Of a stretch of DNA of 64,000 nt, positions 30,015 to 60,405 are shown piece after piece. The stretch comes from Rhea pennata (taxonomy: Eukaryota > Chordata > Aves > Rheiformes > Rheidae), in contig NC_084663.1 of the NCBI RefSeq assembly GCF_028389875.1, forward strand, positions 93,315,765 to 93,379,764, in the 5' to 3' direction. The position numbers and the translations under genes were made by a program. The notes under the pieces are model-generated. The model did no database searches. It worked only from the letters and a program-made list of their open reading frames with translations, and had not been told where the DNA came from. Numbering within the stretch: position 1 is the first letter of the stretch; each line of letters starts with the position of its first letter.

Positions 30015-30445
30015 CGCTAAAGAGGGGGCCCGCGGGCAACTCCGCACCGCGAGGCTGCGGGGAGTCTCCGGCCACCAGGTAATCCCGCTGCTACACTTGG
30101 CGCCAGCTCCGCGAGCAATCCTCCCGCCCTCGCGGAGCCCGCCGCGGCTCCCGCGGGCCGCGTCGCCCTGGGGCCGCCCCGGCGGGTAGCGCGGCCCGCG
30201 GCTGCCCCCTGCCGGAGCGGCGAGGCGCTGGGGCGAGCCGGGCGCTGCCCGCCGCGCGGCATGCCGGGCCGTTAGCGCGCGGCGGCCGTTGGACCGCGGC
30301 GGCCGTTCGCGCGCGCCGCGGCCGTTGCTGTAGCTGCGCTGGCCCCGCCTGCGGGCCCCGCGAGGCGGCCGGGCGCTGGCAGCTGGTGCCGCGGCAGCGT
30401 TGGGAGCGCACTGTGGAGGCAGGCTGGGGAGCCAGTCGCATACCA
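30015..30445. promoter_or_regulatory. CpG island 3 (orphan), about 3 kb past the SPIRE-like 3' end
   Basis: The densest CpG island in the left half, with GCGCGC and GCCGCGGC clusters and abrupt edges. Reading frames on both strands are alanine/arginine/proline-rich and unrecognisable. A splice-donor-like CACCAG|GTAATC occurs on the plus strand near 30,079. It may start an unannotated transcript. Confidence 0.55.
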
Positions 30446-30449
30446 CGCT

Positions 30450-30882
30450 GAGGCAGAGGCCCCCTACAGAGGCTCCTAATTTAAGGGCTTGTGCTAGTTA
30501 CCCCTCGGGAGCTTCGATGTCCCTTAGCCCAGGCACGTAACCAGCATGAGCAGGCCATGCTCTTTAGGTCACTCCATAGCGGCCCCATGCTAACATAAAA
30601 AGTGACGCGACTCAGTCTTTCCTCCCCTGGCTGGCTTCAAGGATAAGTGATCTGAGCACGAAGGAAGGTGAAAGCGAGCTGGTGCAGACAGATGTTCCTT
30701 CTGCATCCCTAGTGCTCCAATCCAGGGTCTCCTGCCCAGCATGGCCATCCCTTTGGGGACACCTAGAGTTCGTGTAAAGACAAGATGAAATGCACACACA
30801 GAGGTTTCTCTCAGTGCCTTGGTAGTACAGCAAGAAGTTTCACTAGGTTGTTACATTCAATGCACGATCATACATTATCCCC

Positions 30883-33242: not shown

Positions 33243-33248
33243 TTTATT
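33243..33248 (-). terminator. Candidate polyadenylation signal of the SPIRE-like gene
   Basis: AATAAA on the minus strand, about 200 bases past the SPIRE-like stop codon (33446-33448). Position and canonical hexamer fit a short 3' UTR. No transcript evidence is available. Confidence 0.5.
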
Positions 33249-33445: not shown

Positions 33446-36400
33446 TCATTCCAGTTTGGTCCAAGACCTGGAAATTCTCCCGAGAGAGATGTTCTGCTGT
33501 TGACTGGAAGCCACGTTCAACAGATACTGTTCGCATTGGGTACAGATGTCCACAGACAACCAGTTTGCCATAGTTCCTGTGTAACAGCACAGAGGCCGTG
33601 CTAGGCAATGGGGTTCCAACATGACAGGTACACTGAAACAGGAGGGGGGGAGGGGAAAGCAAAAAACTGAACCAGGGTTTAGTCAGAAGGTAGTGCTCTT
33701 CCACCTTTTCTCCAAGTTTGGTCCAACACCGCCAAGGGATTTAGTTAAAAGCACAAATTTAATGGAGCACTTGTTTCCATTTGGAGAAGCTACTAAGCAC
33801 CAAAAGTTTCATTGACTGACACCCTCTCCCTGTTGACCAACACTACCTCAGCTAACAGTGTGACAGATGTCTGTGGCTGTTCCAAGGTTGTGGGCAGAGT
33901 CCCTATAACCATACGAATGTTAGGCTTTTTGCCATCTTAAAGCATAGCAAACCAGTCAGACCTCTTCCACAGTATCTGCGTTTTAAGTCAGACCAAACCA
34001 CTGCCCACACAGTGGTGAACACTACCCCAATTTTTAGCAACTGGAGTCAGATACTTCAAACCAGAAGTTGCTGTGGCCTTATTTTGGTTACGTAAAAGAA
34101 TGGTGTCAGAGAGAAAAGATACCTGTTCTAGTACAACATGAAACTTTGATTTGAAGAGAACAGACGTGGGACAGTTTCCAGTCCCATATGTTATTTATAT
34201 TCACAAGGACTCTTTTCTACCCAAAATGAGCTGTTGACTGCTCTGGAATAGTTCCCCTTCTGGAAACAGAAAAGAAAACTTGCATCTGTTGTGTATGTAG
34301 GAGGATTGAGAAACCATTTGTGGATTACTGTTTGGTCAGTTATATCTGACACAATTAACATATTTTTAGTTCTAGGTATGAATAGGCTACCCTGGGCTGT
34401 AGTAAAAGATGCCCAGCTGTGGTAGATACAATATAATGGACTCTAGAAATTCTCACACAAATGAAGCTGTCACCAGGAACCTTACAAGTCCAGGCTACCA
34501 TGGGGAACTCTGAACCAGTGCTGGAAACTTGATAGCTAAGAGGCAAAATGGACTTCTGAGCATCTACCTAACTCCTTTTTTGGTCATCTAAAACCCATAA
34601 TACTTTCCAAGAACTATAGATCAGTTAGACTAGTGGCTAGATTGGTCATTCAGCATAACATTCAGTTCACAGCACAGGACCAGATGCTACAGTTGTCCGC
34701 AAGCTTGCTGACTGACACATACAAGTAACCAGTAACACCTTTCAAAGAAAAAGCAAAGCATCACTGTTCCGTTCCAACTTACCTAGAACACACCCAGTGT
34801 TCTAATTCATGCAGCAACTCTGAGCTCCTCTGCTCTTGAGTGGATGGATCCTCCTCTTTGGAGAGTCTCAGAAGTTTTAAGAAGCTAAGTGGAAGATGTA
34901 CACACATTCTGAAGGGCATGGACATCTAGAATCATAACAGAGGTCACCTGAGTTTTACTGGGAAAATGAAACCACCTTAGCAGGAAAATTTGTATGGCAT
35001 GCAATTGTCTTATTAGTGTACTTAGAAGATGGACATTATTGTAGTAAACTTTCTGACCCTTGTGTAAATAGAGCACAGACTAATCCCAACCACTTCATAC
35101 AGGCTGAAAGGAGGAGGAACCAGAGTTGTTGTGGCTGAATATGACAAGAGATGTCTGTGGTTTGGTTCCTTATCTAATTCTTCTAGCATTTGTGCATCCT
35201 GGCTGCTTTTGCAACTCAAAATTGTGTCTTCCATTTTTTCAGAAACAAGCTAGAGGGTAGATATGAGGTATCAGTGGGGTGAAGGATAGTTTATGACTAG
35301 GGGAGGTGCATGGAAAAAAAAATCCATATGTTCAACATGCTGTTGTAAAGACTAGACTTGCCTTGATGCAGCAGTCACAGCAGACGACACTAAGAGAAAG
35401 AAATTCCCAGCATTATCATTTGAGTAAAGCTCAGCAGATACAAATGCTGCAGCTAAGGGTGACTTTCCCAAATAAATCTTAATTTGGGATTATGGCACAA
35501 TCATTTAATAGCAAAGTAAACAGGAAAGTTCTGAACTTGCTCATTTTTCTATCACTATTTATGCTAATTTAAAACATCTGAAATGTCGGCATCCGTAAGT
35601 GGAAGGCTTTATCTGTACGTGCCCATTACTCTTCACCCAGCACTAACACCACTCAGTTACTAGTCTCCAGTGATTGTTTACTTGTTTCTAACCAATTCCG
35701 TGCCTCACTGCTGCTGTAAGTAGATTTAAGCAAGCCTGAACTAGCCTTAAGTTCCTCTTTTCCTCCCTGACAGAAACCCTCTCCTGAGTGGATACAAATA
35801 CAACCAACTCCTTTCCCAACCAGAGTCTGCAATTCACTTTTCTAGTCCTGAACAGGAAATTCTGGTGAAGACCCTCTCCCAGAATGTCCTCCAGCCCCTG
35901 ACTGAAGTTAAATCCAACCTTTATAGCAAAATGGCTTTCTGCATAAGAGAGTGATCTCCAAGCGGAACCGAGTATAGTACTTGCCTGGTAAATTTGGTTA
36001 CTGTTAGTTTAATCCTAACAGTTAAAACTAAGGTTCCACTTTAACGGCAAGTTTTTACATGTGATCTGTAGTTGCAGACACATCAGCCTCGCTTAGACAG
36101 TAAGGCAAGCAACCTGTTCCTATCTAAACCCTACAACTGTTTGAATACTCAGTATTTTCAGTACAGTTCTTTCATTCTTCCTTCCTCCTTATTCAGTCCT
36201 TTTGCATCATCTCACCTGCTGCAAAGGTAACAGCTATAAGGCCACTTGAGGAACATCTGCTTCTGGCAGCTGAAACAGATCTGTGGAAAGGACAGTTACT
36301 AGTGAATGCCAATGGGAAATATCTTTGTACCAACAGTATCTGCTGCCTGCCAAAGAGCTTTCCACATAAACCAATCCTCTAAATGCTTTAGATCCACATA

Positions 36401-39400
36401 CAAGAACAGAGAGCCAATAAAGAATGGCAGAGACACAGGTATTAAAAGCTAAAAAGGAAAAAGTCTTACTTGTAAGCCTATGTTTTTTTATGATGTAGGG
36501 GTTTGGAGCAGCTGCCAGACAACAGGAGTTTAAAGAAAGGCTCTTGAATAAACAAGGGTTGTATTGTGTAAGAGTGTAACAGTAGCTAGTTAAGAGAGGG
36601 AAGAAGAGAGACATTCTTTGAGGTAGACTGTAGTAATCTCAAAGAGATTAAATCAGGTCAAATTTGAATCCAATCCTGAAGCAAGAAGTGAGTCATAAGG
36701 AAGCTGATGAGGCACTTGAACTTTATAAAAAATATGTTCATACACAGTTGGCAGTCAGAAGTGATATTATCTTGAGGACTGGAGCTTGGGAAAGCTAAAG
36801 ACTTCAGCAATGAGAACACAAAAAGGGCAAAAGAGCCATTTTAGAAAAGGTAGAGAAAAGGCAAGTTAAAGCAAGGCTGGCAACTACAGTGAGAAGAAAG
36901 CAAGAATTCAGTCTCAAACACCAGCGCAATAGGCTGTGGGAGTAGTAGCATAGTGGCGTTAACATGAACCCTTTAGCTCTGTTACACTGCTAAGTAAATT
37001 AGGGTAAGAGGCTGAGCCCCAAAGTCAAGCAGCATGGACATCCTCACCTCTATGCTACACAGGGCTTGCACTCAAAACATTTGCTTTAGAGGGGTTGGTT
37101 GTAACAACATGGGGCAGATTTAGTGAATGAGCAAGCAGTTAAGTGGAGTAAACAGCTTGGTGTCCTGTGCTGCAAGTCTTTCTCTGCCCCTACCCCCCGC
37201 CCCAGACTTGTATCTATCACAGAGGAAGGAGGCTTTAGCTAGCACAAGTCAAATGTGGCAGTCTGAGCTAAGAGCCTTTGCTTCACTGTAAAGCAGTACC
37301 AAATCACAGGTAAGTACTTTATGATCTCAGAGCTGGCCAAGAGGAACGGCAGACTGTTCCGCTAGGTTGGAAACAGATAGGAAGCATCAAGCAAATGCTG
37401 AGGAAAAAAGGTGGCTGAGTAGTTTCCTAGGCAATTTACACAGCAACTTAAGCTAGATTAATAACCATCACAACACAAGTGTTAAGATTTTAAACAACCT
37501 AGGGTCAGATTCAGATCAGTTGCATGAACAAGTCAGAGAACATCTTCAACAATTGGACACTTGAGGGACATGAAGCCAGTCAGCTTTTGAAAAGGCCAGA
37601 ACAGCACAGACAAGGAGAGGACACATACCTTGGCTCTCAGTAAGACACCATCACCACCTCTTTGGTGAGATCCTTCTCCCTCCAGCACCATCATTGCATA
37701 TCTAGTTCCAATCAGCTCAGCAATGGTTGGTGATGACCATTTGGTAGGAAAGGGACAGTCCTAGGAAACAACAGAAGTTAAGCATCAGAGAAAGCTGAAG
37801 CAAGCAGATATTTGAGGTCATCTTCAAAACTCTGTCCCAAGAAGCTCAAAAGCATTTCTTCTCAAAGGTTAGTTCTGCTGGGGATGGGCAATATCAGCTG
37901 ACTCTTTCACAGTACTACCAGAAAAACTACTACAGGAATGCTGCTATAATATTCAAGCTTTTAGATAAGAATTCAAGCAGCTTCCTGAAGTCTCATTAAG
38001 GAAATAGAATTAGCCTTGGAGGGGACCAAGGGACTTATGTCTGATGGCCTCTCTCTGGGGAACCCTACTCTTTGGTACAGACCACAGCACAGGTAGCACA
38101 CAGACCTCTACAGGAGGTCTACACCATCCTGTGCCTGGTGTTTAGGCACAGGATCCTTTCCCATGGCACAGTGCTGTCTTGCCTTCTTTCCCCAGGACCC
38201 ACTAGCCCCACATGAATGGCAGAGAAGAAAACAGTGCTTTTATTCAGGTGGGAAGCCCAGCCCACACCTGCATCCCTTCTGCACCACTGAATAAAGAGGT
38301 CACACAGTTATGGTAAGTTTCAGAGGTTGCAGGGAGGGAAAAGGAGGTATACAGTAAGGAAGGAAGGAGGCAAGGGTACAACACATCCTTTAAGGGCAGA
38401 GCAGGGCTAGGCCATGATTCAGAAGATGTCACAGGGGTGCATAAACCCAGCACTGCTGCTACAACAGTAATGACTTCTGTATTGCATACACTTAGTCACC
38501 GATGCCATAGTATCTGCATTTTGTCTGTCATTTGTCCATTAGCACTTCATTGCATTTTAAAGGATGTTTATGAATATATCAGAGTCTAGACAGAATATGG
38601 GGAAATGGGGAAAGCAGGACAGTCTCATTGTACCAAGAGGCACTACAGCCTGAGCAAGCCGTGACAGAAACTTTCAAGTAACGCAGTTGGATTTTCCTCC
38701 TCATAGGAGGAAAAACTATTTAATGTAATTCAATCTGGAATAAAAGAAATCTCCACAAGGACACTACAGCATCCAACCTTGTCTAAATTGTCTCCAAAGA
38801 GACAATAATATCTCAGTTTAAGATCAACATACTGTATGGCCTAGACAATGTAGTCATTACCAACTGTATGAGACTAGGCTTGCCAGCTCACGTGCAGAAC
38901 TTACAGGTTCCTTGCTTTGAAGGGCACTCTCTAAAGACTTGGACCTTCCTCTGAAAGAAGGCAGTTCCTGTTGGCTAGAGTTCAGGAAACCGATAGGTTT
39001 AATCTCTCCTAGCATGGGTCCACTTATGGAAGCACGCGTGCAATCTGCAGGGAGACCTGGATAGGAAAAGAGAATTTTAGAGTGCAGAAAATGAACTAGC
39101 AACTTCTAAATTTCCACCCCAAATGCTGAATGCTCAAGAGCACTACAGTGTCTTCTGAATGAAGCTAGGCTTATACCTCCTTCACCCCATGAGCCTCAAT
39201 CACAAAAAGCAGAAGTTATAATAATTATGCTTGTCAGTAGACAGTGATGAGTCTTAATTAGCACCATGCAGTTTAATAAAAATCAAGTGGTTTCTTTCCT
39301 GCCTGAAAATTCAAAAGACTCATTTAGCTTGTGCAATGAATTCTAATTAGGCCTTTGGGGACATACTATCATCATTTTGAAGCTGCAGGAGCTACATAGT

Positions 39401-42400
39401 CTTCAATCAGCTGCAGAAGAATCACTTTCTAAGGGCATTTCTCCAAACTCATCACTCAGTGCTTAAGCTTCTCATGGCAAGTGTCTTTCAGTGATTAGCA
39501 AGAAGAGGTGCACAGTGAGTCCAGCCAAAGGCTGTGGGAGCCCAGCAGGGCACTGTGCTTTGTCACTACCTGATTTGGATGTACACCTAGAAGGATACTG
39601 ACCTGCGCTATTGCAGGTCATTACAGATGACTTGGCTAAGGCAAGCTGGGTGCTGGAAGGCAGCTTGGGAGTTGTTTCCTGTAGGCCAGAAGATAAGACA
39701 TTCTTAAGCTGTATACATGAGACACCAATGCCAAGTCAACTTCTCAGAACCACCACTGCTAAACAAGACCTGGGATATCCAGCACCGGAATGATCCAGGC
39801 TCAGCCAAAAGTGGAGGAGAGAGTAAAGTCTATGTGGTACATTTAGGTACTTTATATTCCAAAAGGCAACAGAAGTTGGTTCTCTCAACAAGGAAGACAT
39901 GCCAGTCCAAATTCATTTGTTATCTCTCTCACTTAAGTCCAATGCAGATACTAGCTCTGAAGTGTCAACTGCTCGGAACCAGCTACACTAGATTCTTCCT
40001 TTACAGCTCTCAGAGCACACTGGAAACATTTTCTTGGCTCGAGCTCACATGCAGCAACTCTAGAGAACAGTACAAGAGACAGTGCTCCACTAACCCATCT
40101 CAAACCCAGTGCTGTATCTGGATACCTTTGCTTTTAGTTTCTCTAGAAAACTGGAAATCCAGATATCCTATTACAGTCTCCACAAAAAAAAGGTCCCTCT
40201 AATTTAGCAGCAATACACCACATGGTTCTCAAATACTGAACATTCCTGCAATTAGCACCGACTTGTGCAAATATAGCTAAGATTTTCTGCTTTTAGAAAT
40301 TCATAACCATTTTCCTCAGTTAAGCAACTGCATTTCAGACAAAAATGTTTACAGAAAACAAAGATTCCTGTTTGCATGCCAGAGCATCTGTGCTAGACAT
40401 GATTTGTTAGGGCTTAGGCTGTTCCATAGAATTTCTGACTATGCTTAGATTGAATCCCAGACACCAAGCAGTCAAGCTTTTCATGATCAGTCCATGGAAT
40501 TAGAGAACCCAAACACTATCTATCCCAGTTTAGGGAAGAATAGTGCTCTCTCAGTTGTTCCACAGGCGGAAAAGTAGAAATACACTAGTAAAGGTGCTCC
40601 TTAAAAACAAGTCATTAAGTTCCATTTCACATAACACTCACATATCATGTGAAATGCAAATACATTTAGCATCAAATGCCTTGCTGCATAATACAGTGAG
40701 GTAAGAGCAGGAGTAGTTTGAGCCATATTGGCCAAACTCCTATGCACAAGAAAATCGCTGCAGGATCTAGTTTTAGACACCAGAGCAGTCCTTGGTTTTA
40801 TAGGCTCCAGTTACACCATGAAAATAGGTGTTTACGTATGGTTTGAGCTTCTGTAAAGGAAAGAACTTTAGTGAACACAATAGTACCATGTTTGTTCTTT
40901 GAGGGACAAGACTGCCTACGCTAAGATTTGAACTTGAGGTTCCAGGATGCATGTGTACACAGATCTAGTGCCTAGATTAACTGTGTCTCTCCAGAGCCAT
41001 TTCATTTAAAATCTTACCTGAACTCCTGGTCCTAGCTGCTGTCTTATACTGTTCATGCTTTTAAACACCGTACTGACGTTTTGAAGAGGTAAGATGCTAT
41101 TTCTTGGAGATTTCAAGGAAATATTTGGTGACACAGACATTCCTAAGGGGGCGAAAAAAAACCCACACATACACAAGAGTATTTTGTTGTGACAAGAAAC
41201 TGATGAACATTAAACCCCACACATCAGAATTTAAGATCTGGCTAGGTTTTGTCCTAGCAGTTATATCATCTTTCTGGTTTAGGTGATGGCTCAAATCCTG
41301 TTCTCTTACTTAGTGGACAGTTATGCTGGACACTCATTTGGCTTTTAAATCGTCCATTTCAGTAGGTTTGGGGCCATCCAGTGCAGCTAACAGACAAATT
41401 TGAACTTCTTAGAAAAATGGTAAGTTGAAACACCTTTGAGTCTTAATAAGCTACAAGCTTATTTTCTAGAAAAGTATTTTTATGCCATACCACCTGTGTC
41501 AACACAAAATCTGGATTCTCACCTCCCTTGCAGAATACATGCTAAGGAGGAAAGATGGGCTTTCATTTCCAAGTCAGTGCATTATTTTTAGTCAACATTT
41601 AGTCATGCATGACAAGTCACTTTGTAGCAGGTGGAGCCCAACAGGTACCTTTGGGCCTGCTCCCATTTTCCCTTGCTGTTGATGGCTGAAGCTTCTGTGG
41701 TTGTTTTATTTCTGCCATGAACTGTTCCTGCCAGCTGGGCTCCTGCAGCATGCACTCTTTCAGCTTCCTCTCCAGCACCTGCAGGCAAAGCATAGCACTG
41801 GGAAGAACCAGCGGACAGCGAGGAGACCAGCAGTGACTAAACCACACTTTTGGCAACAGTACTGTTTTACAAGTGCCTCATAGTTGGGAGGACATTGTCA
41901 CACACAATCTCTTCACTTCTGTTTTCCCTATCTCATTTCTAAGTTTCCGTGGCACACGAGAGAAACTTTAGACAACGTGTTTGTTGTGGAATAGTAGCCA
42001 CTGTTGGATTCTAAACTAAGTTAGATCAAGAAGCCTAGGAATGTTTCAGGACCACAAAGAATTCCAAATGAAAGAAGCAGCAGAGGAAGTAGGGAGACTG
42101 ATCATCTTTCTCCTCTGAAAATTTGTCATTTCCTATTTTCCTAGCCCCATGTCTTAGTAGACAACAGACTTAATCCAATCCAGTAGCTAGGACATTAGCT
42201 CCATATTCCTAGAAACCGTTCTGCTAGCTCTAGAATCATTTTGTTTTGCCACCAGTAGGTACAGCACCAGGTCACTTACTGGTTTTAGGTGAGGCTTGAA
42301 AGCAGTTGCATCAACTTTGGAGCTTTTGCTTTTTTGCCTGATGATCACCTGAAAGATTAGAAATGATGCTTAAGTTAAGTTCTTTCCATACTCCTCATCC

Positions 42401-45400
42401 ACTCTACCATTCAGTGACATAATGAATGGTAAGTCAGGATCTGGGAATGTGGGAGGTAGAAAAGACATGACAAAACCAAGAAGAGAAGCACAGAAAAATG
42501 AGGTTTGCTTACGTGTTTTTAAGTAGAGACAGCTTGCTTTGTGACAAACTAGAGGCAATCAGAAGCACTGGACAACCATTTGGGGCTTGCACAGGAAGCA
42601 TACAGCATTCCAGCCCCAGTAACTCATTAAGAGAGCTCAGAAGCTGCTGAAAAATATTGTACTTTGAGATTTCAATGCTAGGAGTGATCCTGACAAGCAT
42701 CATGGTCACATCACATTTATTAATGAGAAGTCAGCTCTAGGGAGGAGAGTTGGTGAGTAGGTTAACAGAAATTGTAGCAGCAGGCAGCTGTATACATAAG
42801 ATTGAGACCCAGAGCCTGACTTATGAGCCTACATAAGTTAGGAACAATAGCAAGATAGGCTTGCAGAGCAGATACTCACATGGAAGTGGACTGTCTTGCT
42901 CATCAAGACCTGCACTTGCTGCAGAGGGAAGCATTGACAAAAATAAGGCAGTTGTACATGCATGGGTTTAGCTGCCTTGATCACTTTTACTTTGAGGCTA
43001 TGCTGCTTGCTTTTCTTGTGTGTACAGCTTGAGAACATATGGAGTGCAGGTAGAACACACTACAGCTTCTGGCATGCTTTCATTCATTTGCAAATTAGTA
43101 GCTTTGCAGTTGGAGAAATCCTTGTTTAAGAACCTTCACAAACAGGGGCCTGATCAGTAGCGGTCCATTTCTTCTATTTCATACTTTCTTCTAGTATTTC
43201 TGACTATATCTCTTCGGACTTGCAGCTTGTTGACCAAAGCAGAAAAAAGTCAAAAGCCAGTTCATTCTGCCACCTTGAGTTACAGTTCTGTACTGCATGG
43301 TACAGTCATACTGTTGTACATTGCAAAGAGCACAGCTACTTATCATAGAATGGTAAGGTTGGAAGGGACCTCTGGAGATCATCTAGTCCAACCCTCAAAC
43401 AAGTAGCACGTACAGGGATTGAACCCGCAACCTTGGCATTAGCAACACCATGCTCTAACCAGCTGAGATGTAGTGTCTCCTTTCCACTGCTGTTAACTAA
43501 TATGTTGAACAAGATACCAGCCTCCAGAGAAATGTCAGTCTTATCTGAAGACTGGAACCACAATCAGGAAGAACAAGAGCTGGGGTTTTATAGGGGTACA
43601 TGGCTCAGTTGAAGCTATTAGTCCTCTGCATTCTATGAGTACTGACAACAGGCAGAAGAAAAGCTGATGTCTAACATGTTATGCAAAGCTTTCACTTTTT
43701 AAAATATAACTCTATTATAAGTAGAGTTGTCTCATCCTCCGCCAAGAAGCCTGTTTGCAAAGCACTCCAATGCCACAAAGCCTTATGCCAACGACTTAGA
43801 TCTGCTTATCATTCCCAGCTCAAGCTACAGCAAGTGAACAGCACAGCAGACCTTTAGAGCTCAGTTATCTCTGTACCTGGACATATTCACCAACTATCAG
43901 TGTTGGAAGCCCCTACTGCTTGAGTCAGCACAACAGCTGCCCCTGAAAGACATTCAGCTTTTCTTACCCTGTCTGAACTCCTGCAGTAGCCTCCACCTGA
44001 GGCTGAGCAGAGCACTCACTGAAAAGTGCTCTTACACTTGCACACATCCCACATCAGCTAAGAAAGCAGGGAGATGACAGAGATGGCACACCTCAAGAAG
44101 CCTGTGGAGATGGCATCTGAGGTAGAAAGCCTAAGCAGACAAGAGTCTGTTCCGTGGAGCTGTTTTGTGTAAGGCAGCTTAACTGAACCAAGGAAGGGAG
44201 TGACTGACCCCTGCAGGGGGATGAAATTTAGCATCCAGCTTCATAAAGATCTGGCTACCCCTGAATTAAAGTTACTGGAAATGAAGTGCTTGGGTAGACA
44301 AACATTGTGTTCTAACACTGTAGTTGAGGGAGAGTCCCAGACACTTCTGGACTTGTAAGTACCTTTGAGAAAGAGTTGTAAGACAGGCTCTTGGGAAAGA
44401 AATCTCAACCGACACTTTTTAGAAACCAGATAGTTAGAGCAAGTGGTTTCAAAGTTGTCCATTGACTCTAGTCACTCACCTTCCGAAGGGTGTACCTTTT
44501 GTGTTGAATATCATCCACCAGCAATTCATATGGGGAGCGAGTATATTCTTTTGGAGGAGTACGACGCTGAGGTCGCTCCGTGGCCTTGCGCAGCCTCACG
44601 CCATTCTGCAGTTCACGGATGACATCAGGCCACAGGGTTGCCTATAAGAAGCCAGCAAGGGCTGAGTAAACACCTGGCTAGATCACATGGAGTGGTATTC
44701 CTTCCTTTCATTTAATAGGGCAGATTTAGCAACCAAAGTCATTCAGAGATGCAGAAGTGTATACTTAGCACCCCCCTCAACTCATTTACAGATCAGATGG
44801 AAGTGCACAGTACCAGAACATAGAATTGCTTCTCTTTGTCAATTTACAGTGAGGGATCCGGGAGCTGGTTCCTCAGGTTCATTCCTGAACTCTGTCATTA
44901 ACTTAATGAATGTTCTTCAGCAAAATACACCTTCTGTTACCAAGTAGCTAAAGCTATACCTTTTCTTCAATAAGTACTTGAGTAAGTTCCTGTAAGTACT
45001 CCAGGTGCTAGAGTTTCAGGAAACATTGGGAATGAAATCTCAAATCTTACTGCTGAAATGCCCAAACTTTCAGAAACCAGAAGATGAAGGACCAACAGAT
45101 GAAAGGAGGCAAGAGGAAAGGATCTCATACTTTAATCTTCCCAGCAGCCTGTGTTAGAAGTTTCAGCCTGGAGACACAAGATGACAACTCTGACATTAGT
45201 TCATCTTCTTCCTCTATTAATCCCTGTTTCCACAGGATGCTCAGGCATGCAAGATAATCCAATAAGAGTTAAAGATTTGGGTGGGGGGAGAGGGAGGAAG
45301 GCAGAAATGACACTCATCAGCATGTTTAGACAACATTGTAATGAAAGTGCTAAGTCAACAGCTTACCTGGATCCTAAAGGCAAACTGAGTAAGAAGTAGT

Positions 45401-48400
45401 GACTGTATTATAAACAACATAAGGAAAACAAAACATTTTAGAAAACTGCCTCAGAACTAAACTTCTGACTTAGACTCTCCTCCCTTTTCCATTTACAGTA
45501 TCGAACATCATCTCTCCACTACTCCTTTCAGATATCTTGTCAAAAAAAGCCTTAGGCAAACTCTGACTTATGACTGCCTTCATGGAGAAGGATTGTTAGC
45601 TGGGTAGTTTTAGCCCAGCTTTGGGACAGTTGTATCTGAAGTCCAGAAAATTAGAACAGCCAGACAAGTGGCCAAATACTAGCCATATCTCCTGTACTAC
45701 TGTACTTATTCTGCAGGAGAACACAAACATCCTCCATAGCCATTGGAACAAATGGCTACGAAACAATTTATTCTGAGCCATCTGCACTTTCTAAAGTTTT
45801 GTTTCATATGGTGACAGAATTGTTCTGAAAGATATCGCCTGAAGAGAGACTTCTGTACTGTAATACTGCTACGTTATTTTAAGGACAAGAATGGCCTTCA
45901 GCTGGCCACTTCAAAGCCATTGCTACACCCAAACAATCTCTAGGCACAGGGGATGTCATTTTCGCTCATACTTTTCTTTCTCTCCTGACCAAATCACTGC
46001 AGTTACTCTACTTGGGCCATCTCATATACTACTAAGCTCAGTATAAACTTCTGACACCTGTGATACCACACAAGATGCTACTCTAGCACAGAAGAACAGA
46101 CAAGGAATAGACTCTGCCTCCTTTATAAACACTCCATGCCCATTGCTTGCAGTTCAACACGAGTGCTACGACAGCTGTGTTCCTAAGAGGTCTCAGTGCT
46201 TAGACTTCAAGGTGAAGATTGCTTTTCAGCACATATAGATAAACTCTGCTGAGATGATACAACACTACACAGTATCAGGCTGTGGCCTGTTTCATAGCAG
46301 TCAATATGAAAGTGGTCCACAGACATCACTATCTGCTTGGCACCACTCAAGGCATCAGCTCTAGTCTGCGAGATCCCAGTGAAGCAGGCATCCTGGTTGT
46401 TTTAAACTCAAGAGTTTGGCAGAACGATGCAGTCAACTGGTGCTTAGGGACTTGGAAACTAGAGGCAGATGATCTGCACCAGATATCCTGCCTTTGTAAT
46501 TCATGTCTCCTGAAGAAGCAGAAGCCAAATACGCTGGCCTTCAGGCCACACAGCAAAACCCATGTATTTATTCATGCATTCCCTGCAGAAAAGAGCTATA
46601 GCTCAGAGTTGATGAGTTTGTGGTTTGAGATAGCTTGCCAGTTTATTTTAATAGATCACAAAATTGAGAATATGCCCAAACACACATTTCACAAACATTT
46701 TCATATGAATAGTTTGAGCACGCTTCAAAGCGAGTGTTATTTAGACAAAAAGAGCGAGTCCACAAGTCTCTCGGGGCTTGCCATTTGTCTCCACAGACTC
46801 CAGACTAGAGTGCATTTGTTTATGCTGGGCAGAGCTCCAGCCAGAAGAGTTGTTTCTGATTGAGCCCTGACTGTGCAAGGCTATGGAGAGAATAGAATAA
46901 GTTGCTTTCTCTGCCCCAAACACATATTCTAAGAACTAGGAAAGGTCAGAATGAAAGGACAAGAAATGGCAGTGAGAGGAAGGTGGGAACCTTCCTCTCC
47001 TTCACCCCTTTGTTCAGACTGCTGGAGCTGCTCAGCCAAAGATGGTGGATCTACTGGTTTTTAGTCCCCTCCAGCAGTGAACTTGTGCAGAGCCTGCATG
47101 ATTAGCTTGAGCTAGTCCACCTCAACCCTACTAACAGAACTGTTTTCCAGGAGCTGTCAGTTCAACTACAGAAAAGAACAGACTGCTTTTAGCAGGTATC
47201 AATTCCTGCCAGGAGTTTGGAGCTCATTTAGCAGAGGAAACAGCCTGAATAACTACTTGTGGACACTTACTCTACAAAGAATGCCTCAAATTTCACTTTT
47301 AGAAGTGGTTTAAATTGAAGCACAAAGAAGCTTTTTGTGCAGAATAAGTGCCCACATGAGGTAAACACATTTAACAGTAGCTTAACTTCAAGCTCACTCC
47401 CCAGCTTGTTTTACAGACAAATCTTTAACTACTTAAGCTCTTAAACAACCTAATAAGTTTTGTTTGTGTGCTCTTAAGCTCTATTTTTCATAGAGGAGTC
47501 ATTGGAAAGCTTCAGAGAGCCAGGGTAGACAAAAAAAAAAAAAAAAAAAAAGACACAAACCCGAAGTCCTGCACATTGAAAGAATTAAATCCCTTACCAA
47601 GTATTTTTCCTTCTTCTGAAAGGGATTTTCCAGCAAGTGTTCCATCTCCATTTTTCTCAGACTCTAAGAAGTGAGCATACAAGGTAATCATTACCTTGTG
47701 CTTGTCCAGTACTTTCCCATCTACCCAGTTTATCAATGTTAATATGAAAATTTGAGAAGCCAAAAATCCCCGAAACACTCAAAAGCTATAATTAATCTGG
47801 TGCAGACAGAAGCCTTTCACATGATGGAAACAGACCTTCAGTTACATATTACATTTCTAGTGCAAAGCAAAGATTACTCTAAAACTAGATCATCATGTAG
47901 AAGGGATAGCTAAGGGTTGATCTCCAAATACCTCTTTTGAAGTCTGGATGATAGACACAAGCTTCTTAAGTTCCATATATTCAGTATAAAGGCTCCTGCA
48001 GGTCACCTTGTAATGGCTGGCGGCCTCAGAAGGCCTAGACAAGTGCTCCTCACAGACCTGAAAAAAGTGCAGCTGTTTAATAGAGAGAGATGTCCTTGAA
48101 ATGAGAAGTGTTGTAGGCTGGAAGAAAGCAAGGTTCAGTTTTCTCAGTCTGTGGTTAAAAATCATTTTCCTCATCCCTTTTGCCTTTTTTTGTTCTATTG
48201 TAGATGGAGAAAAACAAAGAAGAAACATGCCCAGTCCTGTATGTACAGTAGTAGAACTAGCTGTGTAGTTTATACATCTTGTTCTCTAAGGTCTGCTTTT
48301 AAATAAGTATGTGGAAGAGGAAGCCTCCAATACAAACAATGCATGACAAAACACATCAAGTGGAGACACTTATCCTGGTCTTCTCCCCCACCCCCCATCC

Positions 48401-50278
48401 TCTGCCCTGATAAGAGGCCCACTGAGGAATGGGGAATTTCTGGTATCCTGAAATTACAGCTGAGAGCAAACCAGTAGTTTGAGTTGTGACACTGATCTCC
48501 TAGTTCTTTCAGAAACCAAACATTTTGGACAAGCAACTTTTTTTTTTCATTACCTAGCACGTCCACAGGTAGGCTTTCATACCTATAAGATATACATTGC
48601 AGAGGTTATGCTGCCTAGAAAGTTGTATGTATCTTGATCTGTAGGTGAACTTGTAGTGTAGACACTAAGACTCAGGTAAGGACTGGGGCTATGAGAAGTC
48701 ATTTTCAAAACTAGGGCCTAGTGAAAGTTTCTCTGCCTACACCTCAAAAGCACAGCTACAGAAGGCTAGGTACAGAAGAACTTTGTAGACACAGCTGCAT
48801 GACAGCCATGCTCAGTCTTCCTTCTTAACCTTCTCTTTACCATAGAAATGTCAGTGCACTTAAGGTGTTTTTCTTTTGCCATCTGATAGGAAAGCTGCAC
48901 ATTCCCCTATACGTCTTCTAAGCTACCCAGCTCCTCCCTAGAAATTGTTGGACCTGTTAGCTGATGGAGTAATGCCACTAACACTTCAAAAGCTGCTACA
49001 TTAAGTGAGACACATGAAACCTTGATAACATCCTGCAGGGTCACTGCTAGTTTCATCGCTTCATCATCCAGTTTCAGCATGAGGGAGAGCAGTTTCTCCA
49101 AGGGCTCGCTCAGTTCTCGCTCTGCTTGGCTGTCAATTCCCCAGTCCAGTGCTTCATAGATCACCACTCCCAGGTGCTCCAGCAGCTGCAGATACAGGCC
49201 AAGGAATCAGAGCAGTGCAGCACAGTGCTGTGTAAAACATCGGAGTTCACCTCCCTGCCACATGTGACCCTTGTGACTGAGCACCTCTCGCAGGATGAGA
49301 GGAGCTCAAAAGGCAGCTATTTGCCCACCAGCTACCCTGAAATACTCCCCAAATAAGCTGTTTTAAAAAGCGTTAAATGGCCATACCTAGCACCTTTAGG
49401 TGATTCATTTTTAAGACACAGTCTGTGGGCTAATCCATAGTCAGCAGCATCTTCCGCGCACGCTATCTCCCAGTCCAATTGCCTTAGCTGAGTTTGAGTC
49501 TACAGTTCTATCTCATTTGCCACATTGCAGGGGACAGAGGCACTCCCACAAGCATCTGCTCACCCAGAGCACAACAAATATAAGCATCATGACAATTTTC
49601 AGCATCTAGAAACCTGCATCTCCTGAACTGGCCTTCTACCACAGCAGAATTGTATTTGCGTGTATATGAAGTTGAAGACACAGGCTTACCTTATCCTCTA
49701 ACTGTTGAGTGTTACCAACATCTGAAAGGGAAACAGGAGAGGAGATGTAGAAAGATAATTGCATTGGGATTAATAAACAGTTTTTAGAATATCTGAACCA
49801 AATGATTCACAGGAGGAGCACTGGAAAAATTAGTAGGCTGCACATACATATTACCACTCATCTAAGGGCCTCTGAAACAGGGTACAGACAGGAGAAGAGC
49901 CACATAAGAGCATGCAGGAGGAAGAAGAAAGAAAAGAAGCATTTCCCCCATTTTGTCCCCATATTTTAGCTAATGAAGAGCTAGTTATAGGAACAACCCC
50001 TAGCATCCACAGCTACCCATATTCTTACCAGACTTCTTTTGATACACCTTGAAGGAAGCAGTGCCATCTGCATGGATAAAGATACTCCCAGGACCTTTTA
50101 TGACTACAGCATGGAGCGATGAGTGCAGCCCCTGAGACAACTGCTTCATTTTACAGCAACACTGAAAGCAAATAGCCCAGGCTTGTTCCTCACTTATAGG
50201 ATGCTCAAAGCACCTCAGAATCTCTGCTAGAGACACCTTTGGGATCCTCCACTCACACTGCAGAACCTCCATTTCCAC
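33446..50278 (-). CDS. SPIRE-family actin nucleator (possible third SPIRE paralogue), about 14-15 coding exons
   Basis: Coding exons in transcript order, with continuous phase: 50278-50029, 49721-49690, 49185-49021, 48057-47932, 44641-44480, 42348-42280, 41778-41649, 41142-41018, then 39056-38905, 37760-37629, 36280-36216, 35389-35362, 34925-34783, 33632-33446. The 41018-to-39056 junction is out of phase by one base, so one small exon is missing from this model. Predicted length is about 590-610 aa; SPIRE1/2 are about 700-750. Exons 1-4 (residues 1-191) are the KIND domain, with [20 protein letters not shown] and [12 protein letters not shown]. Exon 5 holds two WH2 repeats ([36 protein letters not shown]). 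Exon 7 holds a WH2-like [12 protein letters not shown]. Exon 10 matches the Spir-box, exons 11-12 give FYVE-like cysteine pairs, and the last exon has [10 protein letters not shown], where SPIRE has a CVDCKKF-like motif. SPIRE proteins nucleate actin with formins at vesicle membranes. Family assignment is strong. The paralogue is uncertain: it looks too divergent for SPIRE1 or SPIRE2. Confidence 0.88.
35362..35389 (-). other. 28-nt micro-exon of the SPIRE-like gene with a GC-AG donor
   Basis: On the minus strand a pyrimidine tract ending CTTTCTCTTAG precedes an exon encoding VVCCDCCIK, followed by GCAAGT instead of GTAAGT. The exon restores phase between the previous exon (65 nt, two bases left over) and the next, which begins [15 protein letters not shown]. 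The protein matches the SPIRE segment around PVCSQCCKKM, supplying the paired cysteines of the FYVE-like zinc finger. The homology and AAG|GCAAGT context make a genuine GC-AG intron likely. A sequencing error (T to C) is the alternative. Confidence 0.75.
43343..43472 (-). mobile_element. tRNA-derived SINE with CR1 3' tail (TguSINE1-like), copy 1
   Basis: On the minus strand: an A-box-like CTCAGCTGGTTAGAGCATGG, then TTGCTAATGCCAAGG, a B box GGTTCAATCCC, then a CR1-type tail (GTTGGACTAGATGATCTCC, AGGTCCCTTCCAACCTTACC, ATTCTATGA). The head resembles tRNA-Ile. It lies in the intron between SPIRE-like exons at 44,480 and 42,348, in the gene's sense orientation. The tail implies mobilisation by a CR1 LINE. 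The body is about 130 bases with few differences from copy 2. Confidence 0.88.
47530..47551. repeat. Poly(A) run in a SPIRE-like intron
   Basis: About 21 A on the plus strand (T on the gene's sense strand), within the 3.3-kb intron between exons at 47,932 and 44,641. The rest of that intron carries only a 193-codon antisense open frame of unknown meaning. Confidence 0.9.
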
Positions 50279-50779: not shown

Positions 50780-51430
50780 CGCTGCACGGCAGCTGCACCT
50801 GCCCTTCCCGCCCCCCCACTCCGGGGCCCAGCGAGTGGTTCCGCCCGCCCGTCGCCCGTTCCCCCCGCCCAGCGCGGCCACATGGGTCCGCCCCGTCGCC
50901 CGGCGCTCGGCAAGATGGCGGCGTCCGAGGCGGCGTGGAACCGGCTGGACGTGTCGTGGCCCGCGAGCAGCGCGACGGTGGCCGTGTCGGGCCAACACCC
51001 TGCAGGTCCCTGGCGGGCGCGCGGGGCGGCGGCGGGGCCGGGGCCGGGGGGAAGCGGGCGGCCGGGGCGGGCGGCGGCGGCGGGCGCTGAGGAGGTGTCT
51101 GCCGCCCCCGCAGTGCGTTGGCTGCCGGCGCTGCGGCGGCGGAGCGAGGCGGCCGTGGAGCGGCTGTCGGGGCGGGCACTGGGCGCCGAGGGACGCGTGC
51201 TGCGCGCCGTGCTCTACGTGTACCAGCACCGGCTGCTCCGGCACCGGCCCTTCCTGGCCCTGCGGCAGGTGAGCGGCGCGGCGCGGCGCGGGCGGGGCGG
51301 CGGCGGGCAGCGGAGAGGCTGCCGGTAACCGCGTGGCCGCTCCCGGCCTGGCGGGATCGCCCGCCGCCGGTGCACGGGCCCCGCAGGGATTCGCGTCCGG
51401 CGGGAAGAGCGGTGCCCCCATGCCCAGGGA
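50780..51430. promoter_or_regulatory. CpG island: shared bidirectional promoter of NEPRO and the SPIRE-like gene
   Basis: Sharp rise in G+C and CpG density against AT-rich flanks. It covers NEPRO exons 1-2 and lies upstream of the minus-strand SPIRE-like start codon at 50278. The two start codons are 636 bases apart, divergent. The island lies mostly on the NEPRO side, so the SPIRE-like 5' UTR may begin in it and run through the AT-rich 50,280-50,780 stretch. No TATA box is evident at the expected place. Confidence 0.75.
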
Positions 51431-54400
51431 GGGGCCTCACCTCGTAGCTGAACCGCTTGCCGGTGTCCCAGGAAAAGCTGGATAAGACCATCTGATCCAA
51501 AGGTAGCGGGTTAACCAAAAACCAGTAGCCTTGCCTCTCAGTTTGTGTTTTCCCGTTCTTGAGAGACCGGTTTTACACCAAAGTGCATTGTACGCTGTGG
51601 GGGAAACCACGCAGCACCAATCAGCAGTGTCTGCCCCAGCCCTGCGCTTAAACTCTGTGTCCCCAGCAGTGGCACGCAGGGAGATCCTTCCCCGTAACAT
51701 TACTGCGTGGCCAGAGCATCTGCCTCACCTTTCATGGTCTAGGCCGTTCAACTAACGCCAGGAAGGTGCTGCTTGGCTTTAATGATAGACTTTAGACCAA
51801 GGAGCTCTTATCAGCTAAAGGAGTTTTTCCTCTTCTCTAGGTGGAACAGTGCTTGAAGCGCCTATGGAAAATGAACTTGGTGGGCTGCATTGAAACTCTG
51901 GCAGGGCTGATTCCCAAGTACGTATTGTGACCCTGTGTGTTACACTATCCGTTAACTCTGTCTTCAGAGCTAAAGGAGAAAATGCTAGAAATGCCAGATC
52001 ATAACCATCTCCTCATCTGTGTATCAACCCAGGAAGAATAAACCCCAAGCCCAAGGAGAGCACTTAGTGCCCAGCCAGCCTATGATGGAAACAGTTGCTG
52101 TGAAGGTACTGGGAGGTTGCAAGCTGTCACTGAGGCTACTGGATTGTTGCTGTAAAGCATTTCTGTATCCTTTTTCATTATAAAAACATTCTTACAGTCC
52201 ACCAGAAGCACCTCATGAGACCAAAACAAGGTTGTGGTTTTGACTGTAGGCTGTGTATTGCTGAGGGACTCAACCATGCAGTTAATGTGTGCAACTTGGA
52301 GTTTCTTTGATAGCTAAACATCATCTTTTCAAGTTGTTATGGAAGAACCTTGAACTATTGGCTGGCTGCTGTTTTGGCCTTGAGCAACTCAAAGTTTGAA
52401 TGTTCATCTCTCAAATTATCCAGGATATTACTTTGTGAATTACCTCTAGTTGGTGTGTTCAGCAAGTCTCATTACATGCTGTTTGTTTTTTAACCTTAAC
52501 TGGTATAATCTTCAGCTTGTCGGTTAAGCATCTCTGCTCAGAAGAATTCATTCTTTTGAACACTGTGGCTTCTGGGCTGTTGAGCCGGCTGTGGTTTGTG
52601 TTTTCAAAAGTCTGTCTTGTTTGTTGTCTGTCTGTTTGACATGCCTGTCAGGTAGAAGAGCTTGTAATTAGACCTTGCTGCTGGGCAAGCTTTTTTTGCT
52701 TGGGAGGCAAGGAAAGCATCTGGGAAATCGGAGGTCCTTCCATCCCTTTGGACATTATTCTAGCATCTGAAGAATTGTACAACTGGAGACCTCTTGTATG
52801 CTCTTTTGGAAGGCTTTGTACTTGGTTCATTGCAAACTCTGTGTAGTGATAATAAAATCAGCACTAATGCCAGCCTGCCACAAACACTACCATCTGGTAC
52901 TCTGCATCAAGCAATAAGACTTGCCCCGTGATGAAATGGAAAGGCTGAGGTAAAGCTATTCTGTAATACTGCTGAGTTTTCCAGAGAAGTCATTGTTCTG
53001 CTCTCTTGTCAGTCCTGCAGAGCAGCACTGAGAAAGTAACTGCTGGCTGTAGCTGAGGAGGTAACAGTGCTGTGCACATGAACTCACTAAAATGGTGTTT
53101 GGCATAAGAAATCTGTCCTCCATTGATATGGAGAAGGAGACCACATGGGCATCAGTGCTAGCACAGTTGTCCTGAGTTGGTACACGCTGCTTTTTCTGGG
53201 AAGATCTGTTGAATGATTTGGGCGAGACCTGGGAACCTGCTGAGTTCCTAATGTGGCACTCCGTAAAGCTCTAGGGACGTGGAGGGGCTCCCAAACAGGG
53301 CTTATTAGTTAAGCGAGTCTTATGCTCTGAACTTGAACATTGCTTTAAAGATGGAAGGCAAGTTGACGTGAGGATTTTAAAGAAGACTGTTTGAAGAAGA
53401 TGTGCTGATGGAGTGTAAAAGGAAAAGATTGTATTTAGGGGAGGAATAAGGAGAGGGATACTTGGAATCAGTTCCAGTAGCTCTTTCTCTCAAGCTGAAG
53501 GTGGTTGTTCAGTGAGCACAAGCTATGATGGTTTTGCTAGAGATGACTCAATACCTTTTCTGTTTTACCTCCTCAGGATTCAGTACAGGTGTGTATTGCA
53601 GAGCCTCATTTCATTATATGAGGTGTTGTCAACATCACTGCAGCTTGTGTCGGAGACTCAACAGATGCCTTATATTAAGGGCTTTACCTTCCCTTCTGAC
53701 ATCAGTGACTTTCTTGGAGTTTCTTTCTCTTCTGAGGTGAAGAAGAAAAAGGCTAAAACACTGACAGCCACAAAAGCTGCCAGCTGGTTGAAAAAGTTCT
53801 TCCCAGCAGTGCCAGAGGCAGCATCAGAGGCTGAGAAAAAGAGAGATTTGGTGACCTGCACAACTGTTGCGGAAAGCAAGACCATCTCGTGCCCCACAGA
53901 CATCGGAAAGCCAGTTCTGGTTACTAGAGCTAGCACAGGTAAAGCATTGTGCCACAGTACTACTGGTTTCTGGCATCTCAGAAACTGCCATTAACCCCAA
54001 CTTCTGTCCAACAGAGCCAAGCTCTTCTGCCACCTGCAGAGGGTGGTCCCCGGATGAACTCCCTTTCTCTGTCCAAGGATAAGGAGGAGAATGCTGTTAT
54101 GTACCCATGTCTTCACAAAGCTGTAGACGATGTCAGTGTTGCTATAATGAGTTCAGTAACTAGATCCTGTGTATAGTCAGTAGTATTTTCCCTCCTCTTT
54201 ACAGATGGCACCTGAGGATAGTGAGGGAAGCTAAGAGAACTGTCTGCAGTTCTTACGTAGTTGTGTCTTATACCTGCTAGTTCTGGGCTTTCCCCAGGCT
54301 GTCATGGGTACAGCAGTGACCGCAGGCATCCAGGCTCTTGTATGAGGCTTTCACTGATGGAAGTCGCCCTTACAGCCGTGTGTAACTTACTAAATCCTCT

Positions 54401-57732: not shown

Positions 57733-59905
57733 TCAGGATCCATAATTTGCTTCATCAAAAGCCTTTCTGGCTCGTTTCAGTTCTTCATTCATAGTCAGAA
57801 GGTCCTTAACTCTGGCAAACTTCCGGGGGTCCTTGCGGATTAGAAAGACAATGTCCTCAACCTGTACGCGACCCTGCCGCCCGATTGACATTGCCTTGTG
57901 TGTCTGTTAGAGGAAGAAGAGAAAGTTAGTGCTGTGCTTTTGTGCCTTTGACTCTTAATTATTTCTTAAGCTCTCAATTCCATTTTATTTCTTGTCACTT
58001 TATAAGCAAAAGGTAAGCAATTTCAGGCTCTGGGCACCACCATCCTAGTCCCAGAAGCACTCTGGCGTACACTCCCATGACCTTTTTTCCAGGCTGTCAT
58101 TCCCAGGTCATTGATGCCCACACCTGGCATGTACCTCTATACATACATGACCATAATGACACCAAAACTAAGGCCTGAGTATATGCAAGGGAGACCAAAC
58201 ACGTAGAGTGCTTAAGGAAGAATGGCATTAAGAACTTGCATAAGATATGTAATACCAAATCTGAGGACAGTGGAGGGCATTTTGACAGAGAAGGCAAGGC
58301 CAACCTTTCAAGAGAAACAAGATTCACAAACAGCCGGAAAGACTTGCTAAAAGAAAAAAAGAAATCCTACCAGCATCCAAACATCTGGATCAATGATTGC
58401 TTAAGCCAGCAGAAGTTTGTATTCATTTTGTGACAGCGATGCATGCCCAGATTTGTTAAAAAAATGGGAAAACACAAAAGTAGATTAACTTTCAAAACTG
58501 ATCCTCTTCTGTCAGCTGTACATGCAGTGATGCCACAGTGGGCTATAAAGTCAGCTGCAGCTGTAAAGTATCAGTCTAACTGCCCCCAAAGGATGAAGGC
58601 ACTCTTCCAAATCCAAAAGGAGCAAAATGCATTAGTTTCCACTTACACTTGGAGGAGAAAAGCTAATCTGCAAATCTTCCTACTAGCTTTAGTGTTACTG
58701 GCCTGAGATAATGCAGGAGTTGAGTTAGAAGTATTAGCCTATAGAAAACGAAAATCTTAATGGGAGTCTTTGAACCTGCTTTTAATGCTTATAGAAAATG
58801 AATCCACCCCCTTTTGTTGAGATGTGTTCTGCAAGAAATATCCTATCCTCTGTTCAACTGAGATGTAATAATCAGTGCATTTGAAATAATAATATGAGCT
58901 AGATTTTGATCACAACATCTAAATTTGACTTACCATTTCTGTGATGAACTCTATTACCAGATCTTCCAGAATATCCACTGATTCTGTGTAAGGGTTCTGG
59001 TCATCCCCAAATCCATACATCATGCATCTTACTGCAAAAAGAAATATTCAGCATGATCCTCTTTTTTTTTCTGGTCATTCAGCACAGCCAGCAGCATGCA
59101 TCTAGTGCCAGGCAGGTTAAGCTCGGTTGGTTAGAGTGTGGTGCTGCTAATGCCAAGGTCGTGGGTTCAATCCCTGTACAGGGCTATGCTGAGGGTTGGA
59201 CTAGATGCTCTCCAGAGGTCCCTTCCAACCTTACCATTCTATGATTCTATGATTCATGCAACAGGATGGCATTCCTGACTGCTGGACAGGACAACTCTTT
59301 GGAGAACATATGGGAAATAAAACAGACCCCAGCCAGAGCATAGTATGTATGCATAAAAGTGCATCTGATGTCAGACACTTTAAAATGCATTTAAGCTACC
59401 AAATACTGAACATTGCACTGCCGCGTGATGCTTGCCAGGGTTAGGCTCAGATGATGATGTACTGGCCAAGATGTGCTGTTCCGTAGGACAGCTTTCTCTG
59501 CTTTCAGCGGGGGTAGGGAAGGTAAGCCGTTGCTTAATGAGCTGTAAAACTCTACAGCTGCCTAAGACGTGCAGCCGTCTCCGCAGGGAGCACACGTTGT
59601 TCGTAAAAGCCGCGGTGCGGTTCGCAAGGAGCGGCCAGGGCCAGGCGCTGCCGGGCACAGGCTGCTGCCTGCGGCTGGACTCACGTTCCTTGGAGAACAG
59701 CCTCTTCCTCCGGCCTTGTCCGCCGTCCAGGCCTCCTCCCGCCTCCTCGGCGTCTTCTTCGAACTAGGGAAAGGCACGGCACAGCCAGAAGGCGCTGTCA
59801 GCGCACAGGCGCTACCGTCCTCCCTCCTCTCTCCCCCCGGCCCCGGCCCCGGCCCCGGCCCCGGCCCACTCCGCTCACCGGCGCGTCCTCCTCCTCATCG
59901 GCCAT
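57733..59905 (-). CDS. TAF13: TFIID subunit 13 (TAF13), four coding exons, 124 aa
   Basis: Exons in transcript order: 59905-59879, 59763-59685, 59031-58934, 57903-57733. Phases join perfectly and the length equals human TAF13 (124 aa). The protein starts MADEEEDAPFEED, has a glycine-rich linker and GRRKRLFSKE, then the histone fold with RCMMYGFGDDQNPYTESVD, SIGRQGRVQVEDIVFLIRKD and C-terminus ARKAFDEANYGS. TAF13 pairs with TAF11 through histone folds in TFIID and acts in the nucleus at core promoters. The histone fold is nearly identical to human by recollection; the N-terminal linker differs slightly. Because it keeps introns, it is not a processed retrocopy. Its location between NEPRO and GTPBP8 differs from human, where TAF13 is on chromosome 1. 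Confidence 0.98.
59112..59255 (+). mobile_element. tRNA-derived SINE with CR1 3' tail (TguSINE1-like), copy 2
   Basis: Plus strand: GCTCGGTTGGTTAGAGTGTG (A box), GCTGCTAATGCCAAGG, B box GGTTCAATCCC, then the CR1 tail ending in a repeated ATGATTCT. It lies antisense in TAF13 intron 2 (59,032-59,684). The longer terminal microsatellite than copy 1 suggests a somewhat better preserved 3' end. Confidence 0.9.
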
Positions 59906-60140
59906 CGCTGCCTGCCTGCCCGCCCGCCCCACCCTCCTCTTTGCAGCCGCTCCCGCTTCCGCTCGGGCCAGCCGGACTTCCGGAGGCGCCGCCGCCGCCG
60001 CGCCTGGGGGCCACCATGTTGCCGTACGGCGGAGGCGCCGCCCGCCCGCCCCGGGGCGCGCGGGAGGCCGCAAGCGGGAGAGCTACCCCGAAGCGGCGCA
60101 CTGAGGGCGACGAGCGCTACACAGGCGCAAAGGGAACATT
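59560..60140. promoter_or_regulatory. CpG island: TAF13 promoter, possibly bidirectional
   Basis: Dense CpG spans TAF13 exons 1-2, intron 1 and the region upstream of its start codon. Moderate CpG continues to about 60,720. CpG-island promoters are often divergent, and a coding-like stretch on the plus strand begins about 250 bases upstream (see 60,160-60,366). Confidence 0.65.
59835..59867 (-). repeat. GGGGCC-type hexanucleotide repeat in TAF13 intron 1
   Basis: Five CCCCGG units plus a partial one on the plus strand. On the TAF13 sense strand this reads as GGGGCC units, a few bases inside the intron after exon 1. Runs of four G at regular spacing predict a G-quadruplex in DNA or nascent RNA. 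Confidence 0.9.
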
Positions 60141-60159
60141 AAACCACGAGGGGAAAAAG

Positions 60160-60366
60160 AATGAACTCCGGCAGTGCATCGGCAAGCTCACCAAGGAGCG
60201 AGGGATGGAGGCCCAGCGCTGTACGAGGAGGAGCTTTATGCTAAAGGCAGAGCGCTGGCGAGTGAAACTGCTGCAGCTTTGGAGAAGCAACCAGATGGTC
60301 TCGCCGCTCTTGACAGCGAGGACAGAGACGCAGAAGGAAAACAGGCACTTAACGACCCCGGGAGTT
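60160..60366 (+). other. Coding-like stretch upstream of TAF13, possibly frameshifted
   Basis: One frame reads ELRQCIGKLTKERGMEAQR. An overlapping frame then continues LYEEELYAKGRALASETAAA through to a TAG. Each half looks protein-like, but no single frame carries both. It could be an exon of a gene divergent from TAF13, a decayed gene copy, or chance in GC-rich DNA. I do not recognise a family. Confidence 0.2.
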
Positions 60367-60405
60367 AGGGAAATAACGGAATCGACGCTTGGTCTTTTTG
60401 GTTAA

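Follow-up and report, generated by a model that had tools for sequence, protein, structure and literature searches.

The 64,000-nucleotide (nt) stretch of Rhea pennata DNA analysed here (the window; NC_084663.1, positions 93,315,765 to 93,379,764) carries a gene of the SPIRE family next to NEPRO, and raises the question of which SPIRE this gene encodes and how much of the usual SPIRE protein it still specifies. A preliminary description of the locus had read it as a divergent third SPIRE-family gene, being either a paralogue kept in birds and absent from mammals or a fast-evolving lineage-specific duplicate. We find that it very probably corresponds, as the orthologue in a bird, to the SPIRE3 already described in print, which is paralogous to SPIRE1 and SPIRE2; it has a KIND domain, three WH2 repeats and eight zinc cysteines, but no recognisable WH2-C, globular-tail-binding motif (GTBM) or canonical Spir-box. 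Positions are given in the window unless a contig is named, and genome-wide searches refer to the 1.27 Gb, 180-contig assembly of this bird.

The exon model of SPIRE3 was assembled by eye from reading frames and splice sites. The coding chain lies on the minus strand, from a start codon at 50272 to a stop codon ending at 33446, and its 16 exons join into 1929 nt encoding 642 amino acids, with consistent phases and with no stop or frame break. The coordinates, strand, exon chain and splice phases of the preliminary description thus proved correct. An in-frame stop lies four codons upstream of the start codon, and an AATAAA polyadenylation signal is found at 33248, 197 nt past the stop. All 15 introns end in the acceptor AG; 14 of them are GT-AG, while the one between exons 14 and 15 (34926-35361) is GC-AG. 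The same intron is GT-AG in both SPIRE1 and SPIRE2 of this genome.

The predicted protein matched the Pfam KIND domain with E=7.1e-42 (143.9 bits, the cut-off being 26.7), and a search of the PDB returned the KIND domain of human SPIRE1 (E=1.8e-26). We also compared each exon with the SPIRE1 and SPIRE2 exons of the same genome, counting identities and how many of 300 shuffles aligned equally well (Table 1); exons 2, 10 and 16 fall outside valid shuffle tests. Similarity was clear for exons 1, 3, 4, 6, 8, 13 and 14 (at most 1/300) and weaker for exon 12 and, against SPIRE1, for exon 15, while exons 5, 7, 9 and 11 showed no clear similarity above the 300 shuffles. Because the two KIND matches and seven exons stand out in this way, the gene is more than a chance arrangement of open frames. 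The SPIRE3 locus is a real, intact gene.

A genome-wide search for KIND gave seven matches at three loci, namely the window and one locus each on contigs C2 and C13. With the whole SPIRE3 protein as query, 24 matches were obtained at E up to 10, of which 22 (E of 0.445 or less) lay at the same three loci and the two weakest (E of 0.454 and 1.64) on C5 and C7; no fourth SPIRE locus was found among the best candidates scored genome-wide. One scan of a contig collection other than a vertebrate one, with a 54-amino-acid piece, returned no relative that could serve as a second SPIRE3. Read exon by exon, with exons located by a human SPIRE1 probe, the locus at about 108.465-108.591 Mb of C2 is SPIRE1 and that at about 22.988-22.999 Mb of C13 is SPIRE2. 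The window gene is therefore a third member of the family in this genome. In SPIRE2, the intron that precedes the Spir-box exon contains a long array of short repeats (about C13:22995800-22997130), seen in its translations.

The three genes follow a common exon plan. SPIRE1 resembles SPIRE3 in its KIND domain, WH2-A, WH2-B, WH2-D and eight cysteines, and its phases agree in 14 of the 14 exons found, the entry phase being taken from the frame and acceptor and the exit phase computed from exon length. Three of these exons (4, 8 and 14) are also equal in length, at 126, 130 and 28 nt. The remaining two of the 16 were not found in SPIRE1: a search of the corresponding intron did not reveal exon 2, and exon 10 gave no tblastn match, with no further search made. 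SPIRE2 shares the architecture and, apart from a fusion of exons 3 and 4, the exon phases (concordant for exons 1, 2, 5-9 and 12-14); the donor of its exon 9 is unsure and non-GT, and no boundaries were assigned to its exons 10 and 11. Both paralogues differ from SPIRE3 in that they retain WH2-C, the GTBM, the Spir-box and a start in a CpG island.

They also differ from it strongly in sequence. By block, SPIRE3 is 28-41% identical to bird SPIRE1 and 19-40% to bird SPIRE2, whereas bird and human orthologues, with the human sequences taken as background, are 74-98% identical for SPIRE1 and 64-87% for SPIRE2. The gene is accordingly further from its paralogues (19-41%) than the bird and human orthologues are from each other (64-98%), as the preliminary description had judged. 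In a tree of five sequences, two of them human and taken as background, SPIRE3 fell outside the SPIRE1 and SPIRE2 clades. The two splits had supports of 97 and 100, and the terminal branch of SPIRE3 measured 1.78 substitutions per site; the tree has no outgroup and does not fix the order of duplication. The gene is thus neither nested in the SPIRE1 or SPIRE2 clade nor the only copy in the genome, and by these comparisons SPIRE3 is a fast-evolving third SPIRE paralogue.

Such a gene is already known. Kollmar et al. 2024 (PMC11231147) describe three SPIRE genes in birds and reptiles and name the third SPIRE3; according to their text, it was apparently lost in mammals and euteleosts, and the third WH2 of sauropsid SPIRE3 is absent or altered beyond recognition. 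The window gene shares with it the position of a third SPIRE beside SPIRE1 and SPIRE2 and a missing or unrecognisable third WH2, a likeness of features rather than of compared sequences. The third-paralogue reading of the preliminary description is therefore supported, and its proposal of a gene kept in birds and absent from mammals agrees with the paper, from which the statement on mammals is taken, but the gene was already in print. Loss of the GTBM or of the Spir-box in SPIRE3 is not reported in the parts of PMC11231147 covered here, figures and supplements aside.

We scanned all three sense frames of the SPIRE3 gene, from start to stop codon and including introns, with the SPIRE1 and SPIRE2 motifs of the same genome, using 100 shuffled genes as reference. 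The motif queries scored 124-221 on their own SPIRE1 and SPIRE2 loci. WH2-A, WH2-B and WH2-D were found in SPIRE3, each above its best shuffle (Table 1), which agrees with the two to four WH2 motifs that follow KIND in the SPIRE family. WH2-C, on the other hand, did not rise above shuffle level at any point of the gene (45, with a mean best-shuffle score of 42.2). The GTBM was at shuffle level (33 against 33.6) with a query that scored 124 on SPIRE1 and 127 on SPIRE2, as was the Spir-box, with 36 gene-wide and 33 in exon 12 (mean best shuffle 33.5). All eight zinc cysteines of the FYVE-type finger align with those of SPIRE1 and SPIRE2. Pfam found neither WH2 nor FYVE in SPIRE3, an absence that is uninformative because SPIRE1 itself gives only sub-threshold matches (E=1.4 for FYVE). 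The full SPIRE domain order seen in the preliminary description hence stands for KIND, WH2-A, WH2-B, WH2-D and the FYVE cysteines; it does not stand for the Spir-box, which that description had named, nor for WH2-C, neither of them being recognisable by sequence, and the same is true of the GTBM, which the description did not mention.

Since exons 7 and 9 occupy the places of the WH2-C and GTBM exons, these exons appear to have been kept with their motifs erased. Judged by exon place and motif score, the third WH2 is altered in place in Rhea pennata SPIRE3, which sharpens the published remark. Exon 9 has nothing corresponding to the two leucines of the human SPIRE2 GTBM that are needed for MYO5 binding, according to the text of PMC5021521. 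Exon 12 can be aligned with the exon of the Spir-box (Table 1), yet the motif itself is at shuffle level gene-wide. Given an exon 9 that no longer carries the GTBM and an altered Spir-box, SPIRE3 would probably have lost direct docking to myosin-5, and its Rab binding would be changed. The motif losses beyond WH2-C are a modest addition to what has been published, and one genome cannot tell whether they are general. The segment SPTIAEL in exon 12, reminiscent of APTLAEL in the GTBM, was taken as a chance resemblance, as it lies at the Spir-box position and was not among the four best GTBM matches printed by the scan.

The alternative that survives best, although we consider it improbable, is that the exon model is wrong and the motif losses are only apparent, exons carrying the GTBM, WH2-C or Spir-box having been missed. 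A chain built by eye, without RNA, leaves room for such an error; however, the scan covered the introns and still found these motifs at shuffle level while detecting WH2-A, WH2-B and WH2-D, and the phase agreement with SPIRE1 extends to every exon found there. Less probable still, and in our view very unlikely, is a decaying pseudogene whose lost motifs would be the first signs of relaxation. The unrecognisable WH2-C, GTBM and Spir-box, the four exons without clear similarity above shuffles and the GC-AG intron would fit such a gene, but the 1929 nt contain no stop or frameshift, whereas 285 of 5778 possible single changes make stops and a neutral divergence of 0.1 substitutions per site would be expected to create about 9.5 of them; furthermore, the zinc cysteines, the KIND core and the splice sites are intact. 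A copy of SPIRE1 or SPIRE2 that arose recently in this lineage and evolved very fast, the other possibility raised in the preliminary description, would match the very long branch but is the least probable of the three and is not supported, given the low identity to both bird paralogues, the location of SPIRE3 on another large contig, the absence from it of the SPIRE2 exon 3/4 fusion, the introns that speak against a retrocopy, and the SPIRE3 published in birds and reptiles (PMC11231147).

Several points nevertheless weigh against reading the window gene as a SPIRE3 that retains some SPIRE functions and has lost others. Its orthology to the published SPIRE3 would follow from the locus count and the shared loss of WH2-C rather than from an alignment. 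The motif scan has false positives, an intron stretch at 47044 scoring 69 for WH2-A and thereby exceeding the best shuffle of 63, so that the assignment of WH2-D (73) rests also on exon position and on the exon shuffle test. For exon 12, a short helix is still predicted (spanning residues 13-27 of 44, with a mean predicted local distance difference test score of 65.6, a modest confidence obtained without a control). Bird SPIRE1 and SPIRE2 have seven acidic residues in common within columns 1-36 of the second KIND block; compared by eye, SPIRE3 has lost three of these and kept four, so its binding to formins may likewise be weakened. Finally, the loss of myosin-5 docking is the least secure step, because choanoflagellate SPIRE binds MYO5 via a low-similarity motif; choanoflagellate proteins that lack a recognisable GTBM are nonetheless classed as SPIREs.

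The identity of the neighbouring gene as NEPRO, also proposed earlier, was confirmed: four joined exon pieces matched NEPRO_N with E=3.3e-26, and both NEPRO_N matches found genome-wide (2) fall in this window. NEPRO exon 1 alone gave a weak match below the cut-off (E=0.0092), and three later single open reading frames of the region gave no Pfam match; frames up to 56195 resemble further NEPRO exons, by eye only. The start codons of NEPRO and SPIRE3 are separated by 642 bases. A CpG island covers the NEPRO start, while the region of the SPIRE3 start codon has none (observed/expected 0.03), in contrast to the SPIRE1 and SPIRE2 starts (1.03 each). This hints at restricted expression of SPIRE3, or at an untranslated first exon located inside the NEPRO island.

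Elsewhere in the window, an exon-scoring script found no convincing exon in 1-33000. A GC-rich segment in this left flank (30100-30500), with no convincing coding exon, might be the non-coding beginning of an adjacent gene. Another GC-rich stretch, on the right-hand side of NEPRO, is an open frame of 279 amino acids on the plus strand at 59560-60400, with no Pfam match at 0.1. Two short elements, at 43350-43500 and about 59150-59244, have a tRNA-like head and a CR1-like tail and presumably resemble a songbird short interspersed element, while ARAGORN found no tRNA gene in the window.

Table 1 Exons of SPIRE3 and position of NEPRO in the window. Identities and counts of equally good shuffles are given against SPIRE1, then SPIRE2, unless stated otherwise.
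Feature	Position	Strand	Content	Identities	Equally good shuffles
Exon 1	50029..50272	-	Start codon, N-terminal KIND from residue 13; donor gtaaga	28/79, 24/66	0/300
Exon 2	49690..49721	-	KIND; 32 nt, phase 1 to 0; SPIRE2 counterpart 38 nt with same phases, none found in SPIRE1		
Exon 3	49021..49185	-	KIND helices with ERELS...LE acidic segment	26/55, 23/55	0/300
Exon 4	47932..48057	-	C-terminal KIND; 126 nt, as in SPIRE1	18/42, 16/42	0/300
Exon 5	45131..45223	-	Linker; phases as in SPIRE1/2 exon; similarity not above shuffles		90/300, 171/300
Exon 6	44480..44641	-	WH2-A, WH2-B; motif scores 115, 129 (best shuffle 63, 57)	30/53, 24/53	0/300
Exon 7	42280..42348	-	Place and phase of WH2-C exon; motif unrecognisable		11/300, 58/300 (z 2.2, 0.9)
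Exon 8	41649..41778	-	WH2-D; 130 nt, as in SPIRE1; motif score 73 (best shuffle 58)	15/42, 15/41	0/300
Exon 9	41018..41142	-	Place of GTBM exon, phase 1 to 0; without LLKAPTLAE		273/300, 149/300 (z -1.2, -0.1)
Exon 10	39603..39678	-	Linker; no counterpart found in SPIRE1 or SPIRE2		
Exon 11	38905..39056	-	Linker; phases as in SPIRE1		65/300
Exon 12	37629..37760	-	Spir-box position, strongly changed	10/43, 9/36	0/300, 1/300
Exon 13	36216..36280	-	FYVE-type finger, cysteine pairs CFSC, CYLC	8/21 each	0/300
Exon 14	35362..35389	-	Cysteine pair CCDC; 28 nt, as in SPIRE1 and SPIRE2; followed by GC-AG intron	 	0/300, 1/300
Exon 15	34783..34925	-	FYVE loop	13/33 to SPIRE1	1/300
Exon 16	33446..33632	-	Last cysteine pair CTQC, stop codon		
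NEPRO	50915..53810	+	Start codon at 50915, end as end of matched pieces; head to head with SPIRE3		

By analogy with SPIRE1 and SPIRE2, the KIND domain of SPIRE3 would recruit FMN-type formins, WH2-A, WH2-B and WH2-D would gather actin monomers and start a filament, and the FYVE-type finger would keep the protein on a membrane. SPIRE3 might then build actin at the membrane without itself bringing a motor, or work beside SPIRE1 or SPIRE2, which keep the motif. It would thus be likely to act as an actin nucleator that recruits formins and is held on a membrane, its direct coupling to myosin-5 being slight or absent. More tentatively, and in our view less likely than not, SPIRE3 may have abandoned its direct links to the motor and to Rab while keeping formin recruitment and the membrane zinc finger, probably with a narrow, tissue-restricted expression. 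To the published gene, the present analysis adds an exon model in one bird genome, the head-to-head arrangement with NEPRO, and WH2-C and GTBM exons that are present with their motifs apparently erased. If the proposed role is true, SPIRE3 would represent a naturally occurring separation-of-function variant of the unit formed by SPIRE, formin and myosin, and if the losses prove general, it would be a natural protein in which actin nucleation can be dissociated from coupling to myosin-5.

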